42,435 bases of DNA, taken from NCBI GenBank assembly GCA_017551505.1, contig JAFZLL010000001.1, positions 1-42,435 of the forward strand. The letters run 5' to 3'. The notes under the pieces were generated by a model. The model was not told the DNA's origin. It was given only the letters and a program-made list of their open reading frames with translations, and did no database searches. Origin of the DNA: Eubacteriaceae bacterium. Its GTDB lineage: Bacteria > Bacillota > Clostridia > Eubacteriales > Anaerofustaceae. Shown piece after piece: positions 33,126-41,584 of this stretch. Made by a program: the position numbers and the translations under genes. Position 1 is the stretch's first letter, and each line of letters starts with the position of its first letter.

Positions 33126-33767
33126 TTACTTCCTGGATTCGTAATCTTCGTCGATCTCGTCCCTCCACGCTTCCTCCATGACTGATTCCGTACGGAAGGA
33201 TGAGAGGGCTTTGCCAAGAGCGTGGAAGTTTTTCTGTACGCCTATACTGTCAGCATGATAGTTAACAGCCCGGTTAGACGCGATTCCGAACCTTCCGGCA
33301 GTCTCCTCAGCATCAATATTGGCTCCAAGGAATATGAATTCCCAGCCTTTTTCCTTCATTTGGCTGATCTTGTTTTTTATATCTCTGACAGAATACTCCC
33401 GGCTGGCATTTTCCTCTCCGTCAGTGATGATGACGAACATCACCTTTTCAGCACGATAGTCTTCAGCGGTATGTTCCTGCGCCGAAGATATTTTATTGAT
33501 CGTGATCCCTACGGCGTCATATAAGGCAGTTGTTCCGCCAACGTAGTATTCCTTCGTCGTTATAGGGCTGACGGCCCTGATATCGATACGGTCATGCAGA
33601 AGGGTATAATTGTTGTCGAAAAGCACGGTTGTAATAAAGCACTCTCCGTCTATTTCCTTCTGTTTTGAAAGCATCGAATTGTATCCGCCGATCGTATCGC
33701 TTTCCAGCCCGCCCATCGATCCGCTCTTATCCAGTATAAATACAAGCTCAGTAAGTCCTTTTTTCAT
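33126..33767 (-). CDS. von Willebrand factor A (vWA) domain protein
   Basis: A 213-residue soluble vWA protein. The metal-ion adhesion site is complete: FILDKSGSM near residue 10 (DxSxS), the Thr in GGTTALYDAV near 78, and the Asp in VIITDGEENAS near 112. This is close to TerY-like vWA proteins. They usually bind partner proteins through Mg2+ and are found in stress and RNA-repair gene groups. AAGGAGA precedes the ATG. It lies 80 bases downstream of the macro-domain gene on the same strand and is probably co-transcribed with it; rtcB faces it across a terminator. Confidence 0.88.
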   Translation of the reverse strand: MKKGLTELVFILDKSGSMGGLESDTIGGYNSMLSKQKEIDGECFITTVLFDNNYTLLHDRIDIRAVSPITTKEYYVGGTTALYDAVGITINKISSAQEHTAEDYRAEKVMFVIITDGEENASREYSVRDIKNKISQMKEKGWEFIFLGANIDAEETAGRFGIASNRAVNYHADSIGVQKNFHALGKALSSFRTESVMEEAWRDEIDEDYESRK

Positions 33768-33847
33768 TTGTTATCTCCTTTTGTTTTAATTACAGGGAGA
33801 TAATAGGACAATTTCATATATGCGTGGTCGCATTGAAAGCGACATTT

Positions 33848-34906
33848 TTAGCTGCCGAGAAGCGGCTGGTCGTATTTGAAGAGGACTTCATTTATCTGGA
33901 ATATGTCGTACAGTCCGTTTTCGATGAAGTATTGTACGATGACATCGAATTTCCTGGAGTGCGAAAGTGCATAGCCGGCTTTTTCGAGAAGAGCTGACGC
34001 TTCATCCAAATTGAGCTCCAGCGCTATTATCAAAGCCAGTACAGTGCGTTTGCTCGGTGTGTAGCCATCCTGTGTCCTGATCTTGGAAAACAACCGTCTG
34101 TCGATATTCGCTTTCTTATATACATCTGAGTCCTTAAGGCCTTTAGTATCGATGATCCTCAGAAGCGAATCACTGAACGGCTCATCCATTCTGTTGAATA
34201 GCTCATTGCCGATATCTTCCTGTTCCTCAAGAGCCGCCTCACATAGAGCCTCGCAATCATCTATCCTTTGATGCTTTCCGGAGAAGGGGATACTTGCTTT
34301 CTGGGAGAACCGTGAGCATGCATTGTCACTGAACATAAATGACTGTGATGCGCCTGCCATACCGTCAACAGGCTCGATGCCGCTTAAGCAATTGTCCAGT
34401 TCCGTCTTAAGATCGCTCTCGATTGGGAACGAATCTAGGCTGCGGAACACTAAAACGACATCAATGTCGCTTGAAGTTTCATTGAGATAATCCCTGACGG
34501 CTTTCACCGCTATGTCCAACGCTTTCTGTTTCGGATAGCCGAATATCCCGGCAGAGAGCAACGGGAAGGATATACTCTCGCAGCCGTTCTGTTCAGCAAG
34601 TCTTAACGAGTTTATGTATGCGCTGTAAAGCTGCTTTTCACAAATGTCATCCTTGTCAGCCTCATAAACCGGACCGACAGCGTGGATGATGTGTTTTGCA
34701 CATGTGTTGAAGCCTGGGGTTATCACTGCATCTCCTGTCTCCACAGGTGTCAGTCTTCTACAGGCTTCTGTTAATTCACTGATCCCTGCTTCTCTGAATA
34801 TCGCACCGCAGACTCCGCCTCCCATTGCGAGCGATTGCTTCGCAGCGTTGACGATGGCATGCGTTTTCTGTTTGGCGATATCACCGAGCTTGAAATTCAA
34901 AGACAT
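33848..34906 (-). CDS. Macro-domain (ADP-ribose-binding) protein with C-terminal helical/HTH-like domain
   Basis: A 352-residue protein. Residues 1-165 form a macro domain: GDIAKQKTHAIVNAAKQSL, then MGGGVCGAIFREAG (ADP-ribose loop) and SISFPLLSAGIFGYPKQKA. Macro domains bind or hydrolyse ADP-ribose attached to proteins or nucleic acids. After a linker, residues about 240-350 form a helical domain with FSKIRTQDGYTPSKRTVLALIIALEL, resembling an XRE-like fold (two conserved blocks, SKIR..YTPSKRT and LDEASALLEKAGYALS). It may bind nucleic acid or regulate the macro domain. GTGAGG precedes the ATG. The next gene on the strand is the vWA gene. Confidence 0.87.
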   Translation of the reverse strand: MSLNFKLGDIAKQKTHAIVNAAKQSLAMGGGVCGAIFREAGISELTEACRRLTPVETGDAVITPGFNTCAKHIIHAVGPVYEADKDDICEKQLYSAYINSLRLAEQNGCESISFPLLSAGIFGYPKQKALDIAVKAVRDYLNETSSDIDVVLVFRSLDSFPIESDLKTELDNCLSGIEPVDGMAGASQSFMFSDNACSRFSQKASIPFSGKHQRIDDCEALCEAALEEQEDIGNELFNRMDEPFSDSLLRIIDTKGLKDSDVYKKANIDRRLFSKIRTQDGYTPSKRTVLALIIALELNLDEASALLEKAGYALSHSRKFDVIVQYFIENGLYDIFQINEVLFKYDQPLLGS

Positions 34907-36366: not shown

Positions 36367-36715
36367 ATGATGGAAAAGTACATGGAAGATCCCAAGACCG
36401 GACTGCAGTATGAATTGCAGGGCGACTATTATGTGATTGCCAGAGAAAACGAGGCAGGAACTCCATCTATCTGCATTTGGGGACAGCGTCATCTTCGGTG
36501 GCTGAAGTAAAACCGCTGTGTAGCGTATACCAATCTTGTGACTTCCGGCAGACTACATGAGTATTTGCAGGAGATTGATGCCCAAGCCAATGAACAGCTT
36601 TCATGTTTGATCCGGCAGATGGCAGCCGCAGAGGGCGTCTCGGAGCGATTGAAGGCCGCCGATCAGATGGCGTGGGTTCGACACATGAACAGCATCCGCG
36701 CGCGGGCAGAAGAGC
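36367..36715 (+). pseudogene. tnpV: TnpV transposon protein, interrupted by a nonsense codon
   Basis: From ATG 36367 the frame runs 47 codons to TAA at 36508-36510 and stays open in the same frame beyond it. The downstream part reads NLVTSGRLHEYLQEIDAQAN, then QMAAAEGVSERLKAADQMAW and VRHMNSIRARAEE, which are hallmarks of TnpV. TAA probably replaced GAA or AAA. The homology ends at about 36715, where sequence from another gene takes over, losing the last few residues. Confidence 0.78.
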
Positions 36716-36997
36716 GTGGACCGGCTGCAGGAAAAGATCTCCATCCGGCTCTTTCCCGGCGCCTTTGCTGAGAACATCCTGTGCGAAGGGCTTGACCTGT
36801 TCAAGCTCCCGGTCGGGACAAGGCTACGGATCGGCACGGCGCTGTGCGAGGTCACGCAGATCGGCAAGGAGTGCCACGCGGACTGCGCGATTCGCCGTCA
36901 GGCAGGCGACTGCGTGATGCCGCGCGAGGGGATCTTCGTGATCGTCCTCGAAGAAGGCGACGCTAAAGCGGGCGACGCGGTAGAGGTCTTGGAATAA
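36716..36997 (+). pseudogene. MOSC-domain protein lacking its N-terminus
   Basis: 93 codons from a GTG at 36716 encode the C-terminal two thirds of a MOSC domain. FAENILCEGLDLFKLPVGT is followed by CEVTQIGKECHADCAIRRQ with the conserved cysteines and GDCVMPREGIFVIVLEEG. MOSC proteins carry sulfur or bind molybdenum cofactor. Family members are about 140-160 residues, so some 50-60 N-terminal residues are missing. The break coincides with the end of TnpV, so the segment is a recombination product. No ribosome site is visible at the GTG. Confidence 0.75.
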
Positions 36998-37027: not shown

Positions 37028-37056
37028 TTGACAGAGGGATGTGTCTGTGATATAAA
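37028..37056 (+). promoter_or_regulatory. Strong promoter of the sulfur gene block
   Basis: TTGACA (37028-37033) and TATAAA (37051-37056) are separated by 17 bases. The start point near 37063 falls in AACTCGATAGGTAAA, whose ATAGG word recurs in the rrf2 promoter and may be an Rrf2-type operator half. Confidence 0.8.
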
Positions 37057-37099
37057 CATATCAACTCGATAGGTAAATGTGTTTCTACGGAGGAAAGCC

Positions 37100-37180
37100 A
37101 TGGTTCTCGTGAGCTTCAAGAGCATGATGTGTTGTGACATGCGCTGTGAGATGCGTGTGCGCTTCATCATGCCCGAATGA
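37100..37180 (+). CDS. Cys/Met-rich leader peptide (26 residues)
   Basis: The ATG at 37100 has a strong ACGGAGGAA site 5-6 bases ahead. The 26-codon frame ends with TGA at 37178-37180. Cys codons are at 37130, 37133 and 37145 and Met codons at 37124, 37127, 37139, 37151 and 37169 besides the start, so nine of 26 residues contain sulfur. It ends at the base before an antiterminator arm. The arrangement is that of an attenuation leader peptide responding to cysteine supply. The mRNA also holds an 8-bp stem, GCATGATG (37122-37129) with CATCATGC (37165-37172). No family is recognised. Confidence 0.65.
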   Translation: MVLVSFKSMMCCDMRCEMRVRFIMPE

Positions 37181-37240
37181 GTTCTCCGAGGAATCCCTCT
37201 TTTGCCGGAGAGCCTTCAGGGGCTCTCCGGTTTTTATTTT
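37181..37240 (+). promoter_or_regulatory. Terminator/antiterminator pair after the leader peptide
   Basis: CCGGAGAGCC (37205-37214) and GGCTCTCCGG (37221-37230) form a perfect 10-bp terminator stem followed by TTTTTATTTT. GTTCTCCG (37181-37188) can instead pair with CGGAGAGC (37206-37213), with one G-U pair, which prevents the terminator. A ribosome at the leader stop codon would cover 37181-37188 and favour termination. A ribosome stalled at the Cys codons would leave it free. Confidence 0.7.
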
Positions 37241-37259: not shown

Positions 37260-37316
37260 GTGAAAGATCGATTCCCGATCCTGAACCACCGCAACTACCG
37301 TTTCGGACGAATGTGA
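37260..37316 (+). pseudogene. N-terminal stub of a major facilitator transporter
   Basis: A GTG at 37260, with AAGGA about 10 bases ahead, opens an 18-codon frame encoding VKDRFPILNHRNYRFGRM. The piece RFPILxHRNYRxF is the usual start of an MFS transporter just before its first helix. The sequence then breaks off with a stop. This was probably the gene originally controlled by the attenuator. Identification rests on a short match. Confidence 0.4.
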
Positions 37317-37604
<288 letters not shown>

Positions 37605-37622: not shown

Positions 37623-38303
37623 ATGAACTTCTATGTGCAGCGCGCCGTGCTGGACGCGGGCGTCAAGATCCTCTTTGCCGCGGTCTACGGCATCGACAAT
37701 CACGGCGAGGATGCGGCGTGGGCGACGTATCGCAATCGGCGCCTCCAGGAGCTATACGACGAGTACGCAGAGCTGGACATCCACAGCGACCCGATTCTGG
37801 AGGGCTTCAACCTCCTGCACGACAAGACCGGCGTGAAGCGGCGCAAGAACATCCCCGCCAGCGAGAATCTGATCAAGCTGCTGAAAAAGAATCAGGGCAT
37901 GTTCTTTATCAACCAGGCAGTGGATATCTATAATCTGATCTCGCTGGAGAGCAAGCTGGCTCTCGGCGCGCACAACATCGACCGCGTGGAGGGCGATTTC
38001 ACCCTGCGCTTCACCGACGGCACGGAGCGCTTCGTCCCCATAGGGCAGACGGAGCCCATCCCTGTCGCTCCGCACGAGTATTCCTACTGTGACGACGCCA
38101 CCGAGGTGCTCTGCCGTCTGGAGATCCGCCAGGTGGAGAAGACCAAGGTGGACGAGAACGCGCGGAACGTCTGTTACATCGTGCAGGGCAACGAGGCCAC
38201 GCCGGACGCGCTGCTTGTTGAGACCGCGCAGCGGATCGTCGACCTGACCGTAAAATACTGCGGCGGGCGCGGCGAGATCATCGTCCCGATCGTGAAAGAA
38301 TGA
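37623..38303 (+). CDS. B3/B4 domain protein (PheT B3/B4-like)
   Basis: A 226-residue protein with the B3/B4 fold found in the beta subunit of phenylalanyl-tRNA synthetase and as free-standing proteins (COG3382). Typical stretches are KILFAAVYGIDNHGED, ILEGFNLLHDKTGVKRRKNI, INQAVDIYNLISLESKLALG and HEYSYCDDATEVLCRLE. The stand-alone family may have a tRNA-editing or amino-acid-related role; this is unproven. The start ATG 37623 has AGGAG 7-8 bases ahead. It is intact and in the high-G+C block between the metY stub and cysK. Confidence 0.85.
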   Translation: MNFYVQRAVLDAGVKILFAAVYGIDNHGEDAAWATYRNRRLQELYDEYAELDIHSDPILEGFNLLHDKTGVKRRKNIPASENLIKLLKKNQGMFFINQAVDIYNLISLESKLALGAHNIDRVEGDFTLRFTDGTERFVPIGQTEPIPVAPHEYSYCDDATEVLCRLEIRQVEKTKVDENARNVCYIVQGNEATPDALLVETAQRIVDLTVKYCGGRGEIIVPIVKE

Positions 38304-38409: not shown

Positions 38410-39342
38410 ATGTCTGCTATTTACACTTCCGCCGACCAGCTGATCGGAAAGACCCCGCTGCTGGAGCTGACCAACATCGAAAAGGAAGAGAAACTCGAGG
38501 CGACTCTGCTTGCCAAGCTCGAATACTTCAATCCCGCGGGCTCCGTCAAGGACCGCATCGCCAAGGCCATGATCGACGACGCCGAGGAAAAGGGCCTGCT
38601 GAAACCGGGCTCCGTGCTCATCGAGCCGACTTCCGGCAACACCGGTATCGGCCTGGCCTCCGTCGCCGCGGCGCGCGGCTATCGCATCATCATCGTCATG
38701 CCCGAGACCATGAGCGTTGAGCGCCGTCAGCTCATGAAGGCCTATGGCGCGGAGCTGGTGCTCACCGAGGGCTCGAAGGGCATGAAGGGCGCCATCGCCA
38801 AGGCCGACGAGCTCGCGCAGGAGATCCCCAACGCCTTCATCCCCGGGCAGTTCGTGAATCCCACAAATCCCGCCATCCACAAGGCCACGACCGGCCCGGA
38901 GATCTGGGAGGACACCGACGGCAAGGTGGACATCTTCGTCGCGGGCGTGGGCACGGGCGGCACGATCACCGGCGTGGGCGAATATCTCAAGGAGCAGAAT
39001 CCGAACGTCAAAGTCGTGGCGGTGGAGCCGGCCTCTTCGCCCGTGCTCTCCAAGGGCACGGCGGGATCGCATAAGATCCAGGGCATCGGCGCGGGCTTTG
39101 TGCCGGACGTGCTGAACACCGCCGTGTATGACGAGATCATCGCCGTGGAGAACGAGGACGTTTTTGCCGGCGGAAAACTGGTCGGACGTAAGGAAGGCGT
39201 TCTGGTCGGCATTTCCTCGGGTGCCGCAGTCTGGGCCGCGATTCAGCTGGCCAAGCGGCCGGAGAACAAGGGAAAGACCATCGTGGCCCTGCTGCCCGAC
39301 ACCGGCGACCGCTATCTGTCCACGCCGCTGTTTGCCGACTAA
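38410..39342 (+). CDS. cysK: Cysteine synthase (O-acetylserine sulfhydrylase)
   Basis: A 310-residue PLP enzyme that replaces the acetate of O-acetylserine with sulfide to give cysteine. NPAGSVKDR near residue 39-47 holds the PLP lysine. [11 protein letters not shown] near 75 binds substrate, and [10 protein letters not shown] near 180 binds the phosphate. VGISSGAA near 265 completes the site. Length is normal. GAGGAA lies 6 bases before the ATG. cysE starts one base after its stop, so substrate-making and substrate-using enzymes are made together and may form the cysteine synthase complex. Confidence 0.96.
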
Positions 39343-39343
39343 T

Positions 39344-40216
39344 ATGGATCCGACGCTTGCCTTGCTGATCGCCGATACGGCCCTGGAGCTGGAGACTTCC
39401 TCCGGCTCCAAAGGGAAAGACTATTCCGGTCTGCGCGAGCACGCGCAGAATCTGACCGATCTACTGATCCAGAGCATGTTCCCCAGCTGCGCCTCAGACG
39501 CCATGCCGCGGCAGGCTGCACTCGCCGGAGCGGTGGGCTATCTGCGGTTCTGCCTCTCGCTGGTACTCGACGAGCCGGAGCGCGCCGAGGCGATCATCCT
39601 GACGCTGCTGCGCAAGCTGCCGGAGATACAGCGTCAGATCCGGACGGATCTGGAGGCGGCCTACGCGGGTGACCCTGCGGCTCGGAGCATCGACGAGGTC
39701 ATTCTCTGCTACCCGGCCTTTACAGCCATCAGCACCTACCGTCTGGCGCATATCCTCTACCGTGAGGGCGTACCCATCCTGCCGCGCGTCATGACCGAAT
39801 ATGCCCACCGCCTGACAGGGATCGACATTCACCCGGGCGCACAGATTGGAGACTATTTCTTCATCGACCACGGCACCGGCGTCGTGATCGGGGAGACGAC
39901 CACCATCGGCCACCACGTCAGGCTGTATCAGCATGTGACGCTCGGCGCCAAGAGCTTTGCCGTGGGCGAGGATGGAACGCTGGTCAAGGGCATCAAGCGG
40001 CACCCGGATATCGGGGATCGCGTCGTCATCTATTCCGGCGCGACGGTCCTGGGCGGGGATACGCAGATCGGCAACGACTGTGTTATAGGCGGCAGCGTCT
40101 GGCTCACACACTCGGTCGAGGCGGGCAAGATGCTGCTTGCCCGCGCGGCCGTGGTCGACACGCCCTTGACGCGGGACGTCGGCTCTCCCGCCGCTATGGA
40201 CAGCTCCATGCTTTGA
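39344..40216 (+). CDS. cysE: Serine O-acetyltransferase
   Basis: A 290-residue enzyme that acetylates serine with acetyl-CoA, the first step of cysteine synthesis. The N-terminal helical half (RQAALAGAVGYLRFCLSLVL) is followed by left-handed beta-helix hexapeptide repeats: GIDIHPGAQIGDYFFIDHGT, GVVIGETTTIGHHVRLYQHV and TLGAKSF. It is of the longer serine acetyltransferase type (about 300 residues). The frame extends 72 codons upstream inside cysK, but ATG 39344 gives the proper start. No ribosome site is visible, so translation is presumably coupled to cysK. Confidence 0.93.
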   Translation: MDPTLALLIADTALELETSSGSKGKDYSGLREHAQNLTDLLIQSMFPSCASDAMPRQAALAGAVGYLRFCLSLVLDEPERAEAIILTLLRKLPEIQRQIRTDLEAAYAGDPAARSIDEVILCYPAFTAISTYRLAHILYREGVPILPRVMTEYAHRLTGIDIHPGAQIGDYFFIDHGTGVVIGETTTIGHHVRLYQHVTLGAKSFAVGEDGTLVKGIKRHPDIGDRVVIYSGATVLGGDTQIGNDCVIGGSVWLTHSVEAGKMLLARAAVVDTPLTRDVGSPAAMDSSML

Positions 40217-40238: not shown

Positions 40239-41055
40239 GTGTCTTATCCGAAAGTATTAACCATTCAGGACATTTCCTGTGTCGATCAGTGCTCCCTGAC
40301 CGTCGCGCTGCCGATCCTTTCGGCTGCGAGGGTCGAGACCTGCATCCTGCCCTCGGCGGTACTCTCCACGCACACGGCGGGCTTCACCGTGCGCGATCTG
40401 ACGGAGGATATCCCGGCGATCGCCGCGCATTGGCGCAGGGAAGGGATCGCCTTCGACGCGATCTATACCGGCTACCTCGGCTCGACCGAGCAGATCGCCT
40501 ATGTCCAAAACATCTTTGACACGCTGCGCAAGAGCGGCGGTCTGAGGATCGTCGACCCGGCCATGGCCGACGCTTTATCCCGCCTTTGATCAGGCCTACG
40601 TTGAAGCGATGAAGCCGCTCGTCTTCGGCGCGGATGTCATCCTGCCGAACATCACCGAGGCCTTCTTCCTCACGGGCATGGAATACCGCGAGAACTATGA
40701 TTGGATATACATTGACGACTTGCTGGACCGCCTCTCGACAGAAGGTGCGAAGACGATCGTGCTCACCGGCGTGAGTTATGTTCCGGGCAAAACGGGCGTG
40801 ATCGTGCGAAGCTGCAATCTGACGCGCTATTACGAGCACAGGAAAATCGCCAAGGGCTGCCACGGCAGGGGCGACGTGTACGCCTCTGCCTTCGTCGGTG
40901 CGTTGGCAAACGGCTTCAGCGCTTACGAGGCCGCCGTGTTGGCTGTAAAATATACCGTCAGGTGCATCGAACTGACGCAGGACGACCCGGAGCATTGGTA
41001 CGGCGTGAAGTGCGAGCTGGCGTTGCCGGAGTACATTCACTTGCTCGGAAAATAA
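40239..41055 (+). pseudogene. Pyridoxamine/pyridoxal kinase split by a frameshift
   Basis: Two halves are visible. 40239-40589 encodes VLTIQDISCVDQCSLTVALP through YTGYLGSTEQI to IVDPAMAD. From about 40575 another frame continues with YPAFDQAYVEAMKPLVFGAD, LPNITEAFFLTG and KGCHGRGDVYASAF (the GxGD catalytic loop), ending at 41055. The family normally reads PAMADNGKLYPAFD; here the bases for NGK are missing, consistent with an 8-bp deletion. PLP is the cofactor of CysK and MetY, so the gene fits the block. AGGAG precedes the start. It is probably inactive unless rescued or a sequencing error. Confidence 0.83.
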
Positions 41056-41118: not shown

Positions 41119-41547
41119 TTAAATCACATAGTCAAAGCCGCCGGAACTCTGCTGCACCAGATCCTGAACGGTATAGTGTCCGAGGTATTCACGCACGACC
41201 TTGTTCAGCCCTTCCCACAGCGGGAGCGTCCGGCAGTCGGAAGCGCGGGAGCAGGGCTTTGCGCCATCCTCCAGACAGGCGACGGGGGCGAGCGAGCCTT
41301 CGGTCAGCTTCAGCACGTCGAGTACGCCGATCTCTTCCGGCGACTGCCCGAGGCGATAGCCGCCGCCTTTGCCGCGCAGACCGTCCAATAATCCGGCCTT
41401 GACGAGCTCCTTCACGATGCTCTCGAGATATTTTTCCGAAATCTCCTGCCGCTCGGCGATCTCCCGGAGCGTGATATAACGATCGCTGTCCTGCTCGGCC
41501 AGATCGACGAGAACGCGCAACGCATAGCGCCCGCGAGTGGATACCAT
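41119..41547 (-). CDS. Rrf2-family transcriptional regulator with three IscR-like cysteines
   Basis: A 142-residue winged-helix regulator. MVSTRGRYALRVLVDLAEQ is the standard Rrf2 start, followed by the recognition region (ISEKYLESIVKELVKAGLL) and the wing GLRGKGGGYRLG. Three cysteines, C91, C99 and C105 (ACLEDGAKPC then DCRTLP), have IscR-like spacing and could hold an Fe-S cluster. Beside cysK and cysE it could also play a CymR-like role as cysteine-metabolism repressor that binds CysK. Two TTG codons at 41553 and 41550 are alternative starts; GGGAGG lies 11 bases before the ATG. Its promoter contains CCTAT..ATAGG. Confidence 0.9.
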   Translation of the reverse strand: MVSTRGRYALRVLVDLAEQDSDRYITLREIAERQEISEKYLESIVKELVKAGLLDGLRGKGGGYRLGQSPEEIGVLDVLKLTEGSLAPVACLEDGAKPCSRASDCRTLPLWEGLNKVVREYLGHYTVQDLVQQSSGGFDYVI

Positions 41548-41584
41548 CAACAAAACCGCCTCCCGTTCTCCAACACTTTATATG

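Follow-up and report, generated by a model that had tools for sequence, protein, structure and literature searches.

Leader-peptide attenuators exist in Bacillota (PMC2965389, PMC5794164); the ilv leader of Staphylococcus aureus, for instance, is Leu-rich and acts as a ribosome-mediated attenuator (PMC5794164). The leader described here comes from a 42,435-nucleotide stretch of DNA of an Eubacteriaceae bacterium (class Clostridia, same order as Acetobacterium), the whole of which we call the window. It shares with attenuators of the trp, his and ilv type the presence of end-product codons in a translated leader, an antiterminator and an intrinsic terminator that exclude each other, and a position before genes of the pathway. 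It differs from them in that it is predicted to read Cys, occurs in Clostridia, and is accompanied by a second conserved leader ORF, uORF2.

Cysteine leaders were reported in Actinobacteria by Seliverstov et al. 2005 (PMC1262725), and polycysteine leaderless ORFs in mycobacteria by Canestrari et al. 2020 (cited in PMC13236596). As described, both resemble the window in having Cys codons in a short ORF before cysteine genes, but they are leaderless or have no conserved terminator, and their Cys runs lie near the stop codon; the window leader, in contrast, has a Shine-Dalgarno site and a 5' untranslated stretch, Cys codons in mid-peptide and an intrinsic terminator. The uORFC-8-2 motif, found before cysS in Rhodobacterales, likewise combines tandem Cys codons with a terminator, and attenuation has been predicted for it; however, it is alphaproteobacterial, bears on cysteinyl-tRNA synthetase control, differs in RNA and peptide, and has no reported uORF2 (PMC8632094), whereas the window leader precedes metY and cysK in Clostridia.

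In Bacillota, T-boxes, SAM riboswitches and CymR regulate the same sulfur pathway as the one downstream of this leader. Rfam covariance models, those of the T-box and SAM riboswitches included, gave no match in the window leader or in the 19 other loci tested; a sub-threshold match to atoC RNA (20.5 bits against a gathering score of 50, E 0.32) was taken as chance. A literature search, with subscription journals largely outside its coverage, found no cysteine attenuator in Clostridia. The leader is a candidate cysteine sensor for clostridial sulfur genes whose leaders have neither a T-box nor a SAM riboswitch, and it would extend predicted Cys-codon attenuation beyond Actinobacteria and Alphaproteobacteria.

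The uORF1 leader and its hairpins

A cysteine gene cluster occupies the forward strand of the window from 37.0 kb onwards, in the order promoter, GGAGG, uORF1, terminator, uORF2, metY remnant, B3/4-domain gene, cysK and cysE-like gene; the features below lie on this strand unless stated otherwise. The promoter (37028-37056) is made of TTGACA (37028-37033), a 17-nt spacer and TATAAA (37051-37056), with a TG before the -10 box (extended -10). It was missed by our consensus promoter scan, which requires T as the last -10 base, because TATAAA ends in A. The Shine-Dalgarno sequence GGAGG (37089-37093) is located 6 nt 5' of the ATG at 37100, where uORF1 (37100-37180, stop TGA at 37178-37180) begins; it encodes the 26-aa Cys/Met-rich leader peptide MVLVSFKSMMCCDMRCEMRVRFIMPE, with six Met and three Cys, the latter at codons 37130-37132, 37133-37135 and 37145-37147 (Cys11, Cys12 and Cys16). 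A first-pass annotation of this DNA had placed promoter, ribosome site and a 26-residue ORF of this composition here, and the sequence confirms all three. No NCBIfam or Pfam model matches the uORF1 or uORF2 peptide. At 37059-37076 lies TATCAACTCGATAGGTAA, a putative half-preserved Rrf2/CymR-type box similar to ACCAACCTAAACGATAGGTAA at the matching place in genomes G144 and G222; by itself this resemblance is not significant, and we discarded the box as stand-alone evidence.

Exactly one intrinsic terminator was found by a scan of the leader region (37204-37239; stem 37204-37215/37220-37231, 12 bp, -23.9 kcal/mol, followed by a U tract), so that the earlier placement at 37205-37230 was right to within one base of the 37204-37231 given by both scan and fold. 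The antiterminator 5' arm GUUCUCCG (37181-37188) stands directly 3' of the uORF1 stop codon, and is complementary to the 3' arm CGGAGAGC (37206-37213), which lies within the terminator 5' arm. As had been proposed, complementarity and folding make this 8-bp helix and the terminator, which share bases, mutually exclusive. Folding also predicts an 8-bp helix within uORF1 (37122-37129/37165-37172) which, together with pairing of 37104-37116 with 37179-37192, can sequester the antiterminator arm in silico when no ribosome occupies the Cys codons.

We folded the transcript ending at 37215 with the ribosome footprint masked. In this in silico setting the antiterminator forms with P = 0.98 when the ribosome is at Cys12 or Cys16, P = 0 when it is at the stop codon, and P = 0.09 with no ribosome, the last value being low because the arm is hidden by upstream pairing. 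These figures agree with the first-pass idea that a ribosome stalled at Cys codons would free the arm and one at the stop codon would mask it. In the full-length transcript the terminator is the more stable fold in every ribosome state, and the switch must therefore act during transcription, with the antiterminator winning kinetically. The 181-nt leader folds more stably than its shuffles (z = -4.3). Pairing as good as that of the window's 8-bp antiterminator arose in 146 of 2000 shuffles (7%) when the segment upstream was randomised, and taken alone this helix is not strong evidence. A swap of arms between the window and other genomes showed no covariation for the window, its arm pairing equally well or better with some of the longer terminator arms from elsewhere. 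The evidence that goes beyond chance is comparative, namely the Cys-rich uORFs before metY, the enrichment in Cys, and the recurring architecture.

The trp attenuator works in this way, with the position of a ribosome gating mutually exclusive hairpins. In the window a leader ORF with a ribosome site, whose Cys codons are enriched or conserved in homologues, precedes an intrinsic terminator that lies before the first gene; an antiterminator exclusive with this terminator is gated by ribosome position in silico; and the downstream cysK and cysE make cysteine. We consider it probable that uORF1 acts with its hairpins as a transcription attenuator of the ribosome-mediated trp type that reads charged tRNA-Cys, and from these parts we infer ribosome stalling, cysteine dependence and an effect on expression. 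When cysteine is scarce, the ribosome would stall at Cys11, Cys12 or Cys16 and hold the 5' part of uORF1, the arm 3' of the stop codon would stay free and pair with the terminator 5' strand as this strand emerges, and antiterminated transcription would proceed through uORF2 to the metY remnant and on to the B3/4-domain gene, cysK and cysE. Ample cysteine would let the ribosome advance to the stop codon and cover the arm, and with the terminator formed the genes would be off; without translation, the arm would be mostly hidden by upstream pairing.

Cys-rich leaders in other clostridial genomes

Used as a query against relatives, the 26-aa peptide gave chance-level matches only. Since it is too divergent for direct search, we examined the regions ahead of metY, which in many relatives immediately precedes cysK. 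A uORF with a ribosome site and at least three Cys was present in 25 of 121 clostridial metY upstream regions, whereas dinucleotide shuffles averaged 1.6 and never exceeded 4, and none occurred on the antisense strand. The 121 regions are phylogenetically non-independent, yet the peptides fall into many dissimilar sequences. In a comparison of all amino acids, Cys was by far the most enriched residue, at z 20.4; the next were Arg at 7.0 and Met at 5.5. Cys leaders occur in the window's own family (MFIIRKRQKENYHNGRMYMCCINLNNTQ and MKNNIKRMCCYNNK), in Acetobacterium (for example MLNSELCISNERVLCMCCSRNGYLYSC), and outside both (for example MNIIFAMLRRNYRNGRMCLCMCTR). The aligned Acetobacterium leaders, with 47-90% identity to the first sequence, have invariant Cys at 7, 15, 17, 18 and 27, and most other positions vary; one further species has Tyr at position 7. 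A pattern combining a ribosome site with RMCC was also tried and rejected, its matches being close to chance and the one plausible match (G390) being the start of glgC.

Four Acetobacterium leaders (L061, L066, L067 and L068), lying about 150-380 nt before metY, showed no terminator. In these, ATATTGCATTTGTC, located 3' of the uORF, shows complementarity to GGCAAAGCAATATG, where the uORF has its ribosome site and start. This suggests a switch of another kind, one acting on translation.

The full tandem layout, consisting of promoter, Cys/Met-rich uORF1, antiterminator, terminator and uORF2, recurs in four further copies, one in G144 (L211), two in G222 (L230 and L256) and one in G293 (L221), these three genomes belonging to three families other than that of the window; with the window included, the layout rests on five copies from four genomes. 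At the position matching the window promoter these copies have TTGACA-17-TATACT. Their uORF1 begins MIK.Y..T..MM.MC and has 4-6 Cys, the range over all five copies being 3-6. The window uORF1 is 17-23% identical to the others, with Met-Met and the Cys cluster alone in common. All four non-window copies have the antiterminator UC(C/U)GAUA..CUCC with GGAG..UCGGA, which in silico stays free when the Cys cluster is occupied by a stalled ribosome. In G293 the antiterminator RNA is read in a different frame (L-I-C-S-P vs S-D-M-F-S), and its persistence despite this change indicates that the RNA is conserved, not the peptide. In these four copies the region of the Cys codons offers the arm an alternative partner (-11.8 to -15.3 kcal/mol), and this pairing corresponds to the classical 1:2 helix.

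Three more leaders (G011 and G006, from the window's own family, and the more distant G219) have other sequences, with a terminator and antiterminators of 10-14 bp that start 13-14 nt after a Cys codon. Homologous leaders lacking Cys codons or the antiterminator would have spoken against a cysteine attenuator; both are kept in the five tandem copies and in these three leaders, and this, with the Cys enrichment before metY, supports the earlier reading.

The relatives of uORF1 are located before metY or a transporter gene. metY leads to methionine, six of the 26 uORF1 codons specify Met, uORF1 has the motif MMxMC, Met-Met precedes the Cys cluster in every tandem copy, and Met is likewise enriched ahead of metY, all of which would fit a leader that senses methionine, or methionine and cysteine jointly. 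The enrichment of Cys is far higher, however, and the Acetobacterium leaders keep five Cys but a single internal Met; in the tandem copies, the uORF1 Met codons also form strand 1 of the 1:2 helix, which could by itself account for their retention. We therefore regard sensing other than of Cys alone as unlikely and keep to the reading in which uORF1 responds to charged tRNA-Cys, to which the Met codons may contribute.

In one leader of G293 (L228, contig 4, reverse strand) the terminator is missing and the ORF with the Cys codons continues, in the same frame, as uORF2 (MTMCFSTICLWRNC...NYRFGRM*). After the whole tandem of L221, and after the uORF2 of L219, the place of metY is taken by an ABC-transporter lipoprotein operon; these operons likely encode a sulfur amino acid importer.

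The uORF2 family

In describing a complete attenuation device, the first-pass annotation had the uORF1 attenuator parts right and missed that they are one half of a tandem leader. The other half, uORF2 (37260-37316, GTG start, stop TGA 37314-37316), encodes the 18-aa peptide VKDRFPILNHRNYRFGRM between the 3' side of the terminator and the metY remnant. It was found through the motif N(Y/F)RxGRMC, common to many Cys leaders, which matched 23 of 391 clostridial genomes against 4 matches for the reversed control; a profile search then matched 32 of the 391 at E <= 0.001, the window copy being the sole match in its genome (E = 6.5e-7). The family is mostly 18 codons long, with consensus MxxxFxxLxRxNFRFGRM, in which N..xGRM is invariant, and it has no model in Rfam, NCBIfam or Pfam. 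Of 33 distinct copies, 31 precede metY, and in the other 2 the gene that follows is for an ABC-transporter lipoprotein. The window copy belongs to this NFRxGRM family by its GRM end, its CGA codon and its position before the metY remnant: it ends NYRFGRM*, with Arg, Met and stop coded CGA-ATG-TGA (MKFYFEELVRANFRFGRM then UGA), although it has the GTG start and is without the near-invariant Arg10.

Compared by codon position, the copies show an identity of 0.56 at the first, 0.63 at the second and 0.36 at the third. The interval from uORF2 to metY has no consensus RNA structure (alifold -0.6 kcal/mol), for which reason uORF2 is not classed as a structured RNA; together with the codon-position identities this argues that uORF2 is a translated peptide. 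Arg17 is encoded by CGA in all 33 copies, whereas six codons are in use for Arg14. Of 35 Cys or RM leaders ahead of metY and cysK, 34 use CGA for the Arg in the RM pair. CGA is decoded by inosine wobble, and we know of no precedent for an invariant CGA codon in a leader peptide.

The codon after GRM is TGA in 13 copies, TGT or TGC in 16, TAA in 2 and another in 2. Many relatives have Cys codons directly after GRM, and in these a single leader may serve both roles; others, the window included, end at GRM and have their Cys codons on a uORF1 with a terminator. In a third set (L203, L208, L212, L213 and L219) uORF2 ends at GRM and no Cys leader was seen, in which case uORF2 would have to act by itself. 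TnaC is a nascent-peptide leader. Leaders of its kind and uORF2 are both short, with conserved C-terminal residues, and often end at the stop codon; uORF2 differs from them in its unrelated sequence and its invariant CGA codon, and its stalling is putative. Our guess is that uORF2 signals a stall that depends on its nascent peptide or on its codons, and of such guesses we prefer a stall at GRM for which CGA, a slow codon, sets the strength. More broadly, and quite tentatively, Clostridia might control sulfur assimilation through leaders built around N(F/Y/W)RxG-R(CGA)-M, a motif immediately followed by a stop or Cys codon. These would be a new ribosome-stalling class in which the nascent peptide and the invariant CGA would render the ribosome hypersensitive to either the supply of cysteine or a sulfur metabolite, the window being split into a Cys-codon attenuator (uORF1 and terminator) followed by a peptide module (uORF2). 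We know of no earlier description of this family of conserved leaders, mostly of 18 aa, with its invariant CGA; it is amenable to direct testing.

Downstream genes and state of the locus

The leader had been annotated as lying ahead of sulfur-assimilation genes. This holds for cysK (cysteine synthase A, 38410-39342; TIGR01139, 9.2e-139) and the cysE-like serine O-acetyltransferase gene (39344-40216, start inferred), but the first gene, metY (O-acetylhomoserine sulfhydrylase), is only a remnant of 77 N-terminal aa followed by a stop (37371-37604). Its counterpart at the matching place in relatives is about 430 aa long in a single frame, and a search of the window's genome found no full-length metY. 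The genes now under the leader are consequently the B3/4-domain gene (37623-38303; PF03483, 1.7e-18), cysK and cysE. The B3/4-domain gene begins directly 3' of the 77-codon metY remnant.

With metY shortened, the element could itself be decaying, and the GTG start and lost Arg10 of uORF2 make partial decay possible. A relic that formerly controlled metY and is now non-functional in this genome would also agree with the broken pdxK and MOSC frames nearby; yet uORF1, its ribosome site, the promoter, the antiterminator and the strong terminator are all intact, cysK and cysE are still downstream, and some of the broken frames may be sequencing errors of the draft genome. We consider a functionless relic improbable.

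An Rrf2-family regulator, CymR/IscR-like, closes the cluster on the reverse strand (41119-41553), 3' of the cysE-like gene and a pdx-kinase gene in two frames; Rrf2 genes also adjoin the metY leaders of G008 and G012. Given this regulator, the Rrf2-like boxes at relatives' promoters and a MOSC-domain ORF that ends at 36997, one could suppose that uORF1 is incidental, that the terminator merely ends the MOSC gene and that the Rrf2 regulator controls the cys genes. We hold this to be very improbable, as a promoter and a ribosome site separate the MOSC gene from the terminator, uORF1, antiterminator and terminator co-occur in unrelated surroundings, and attenuation and Rrf2 control are compatible with each other. 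An active cysteine attenuator remains our preferred reading of the locus.

Several neighbouring genes deserve mention. The pyridoxamine-kinase-like gene pdxK (40239-41055) extends over two frames and is either a broken gene or a sequencing error. Just 5' of the leader, 36603-36997 encodes the MOSC-domain end of a MoaC/MOSC-type gene whose frame is apparently broken. Further upstream, on the reverse strand, 33126-34906 holds neighbouring genes that encode a VWA-domain and a macro-domain protein.
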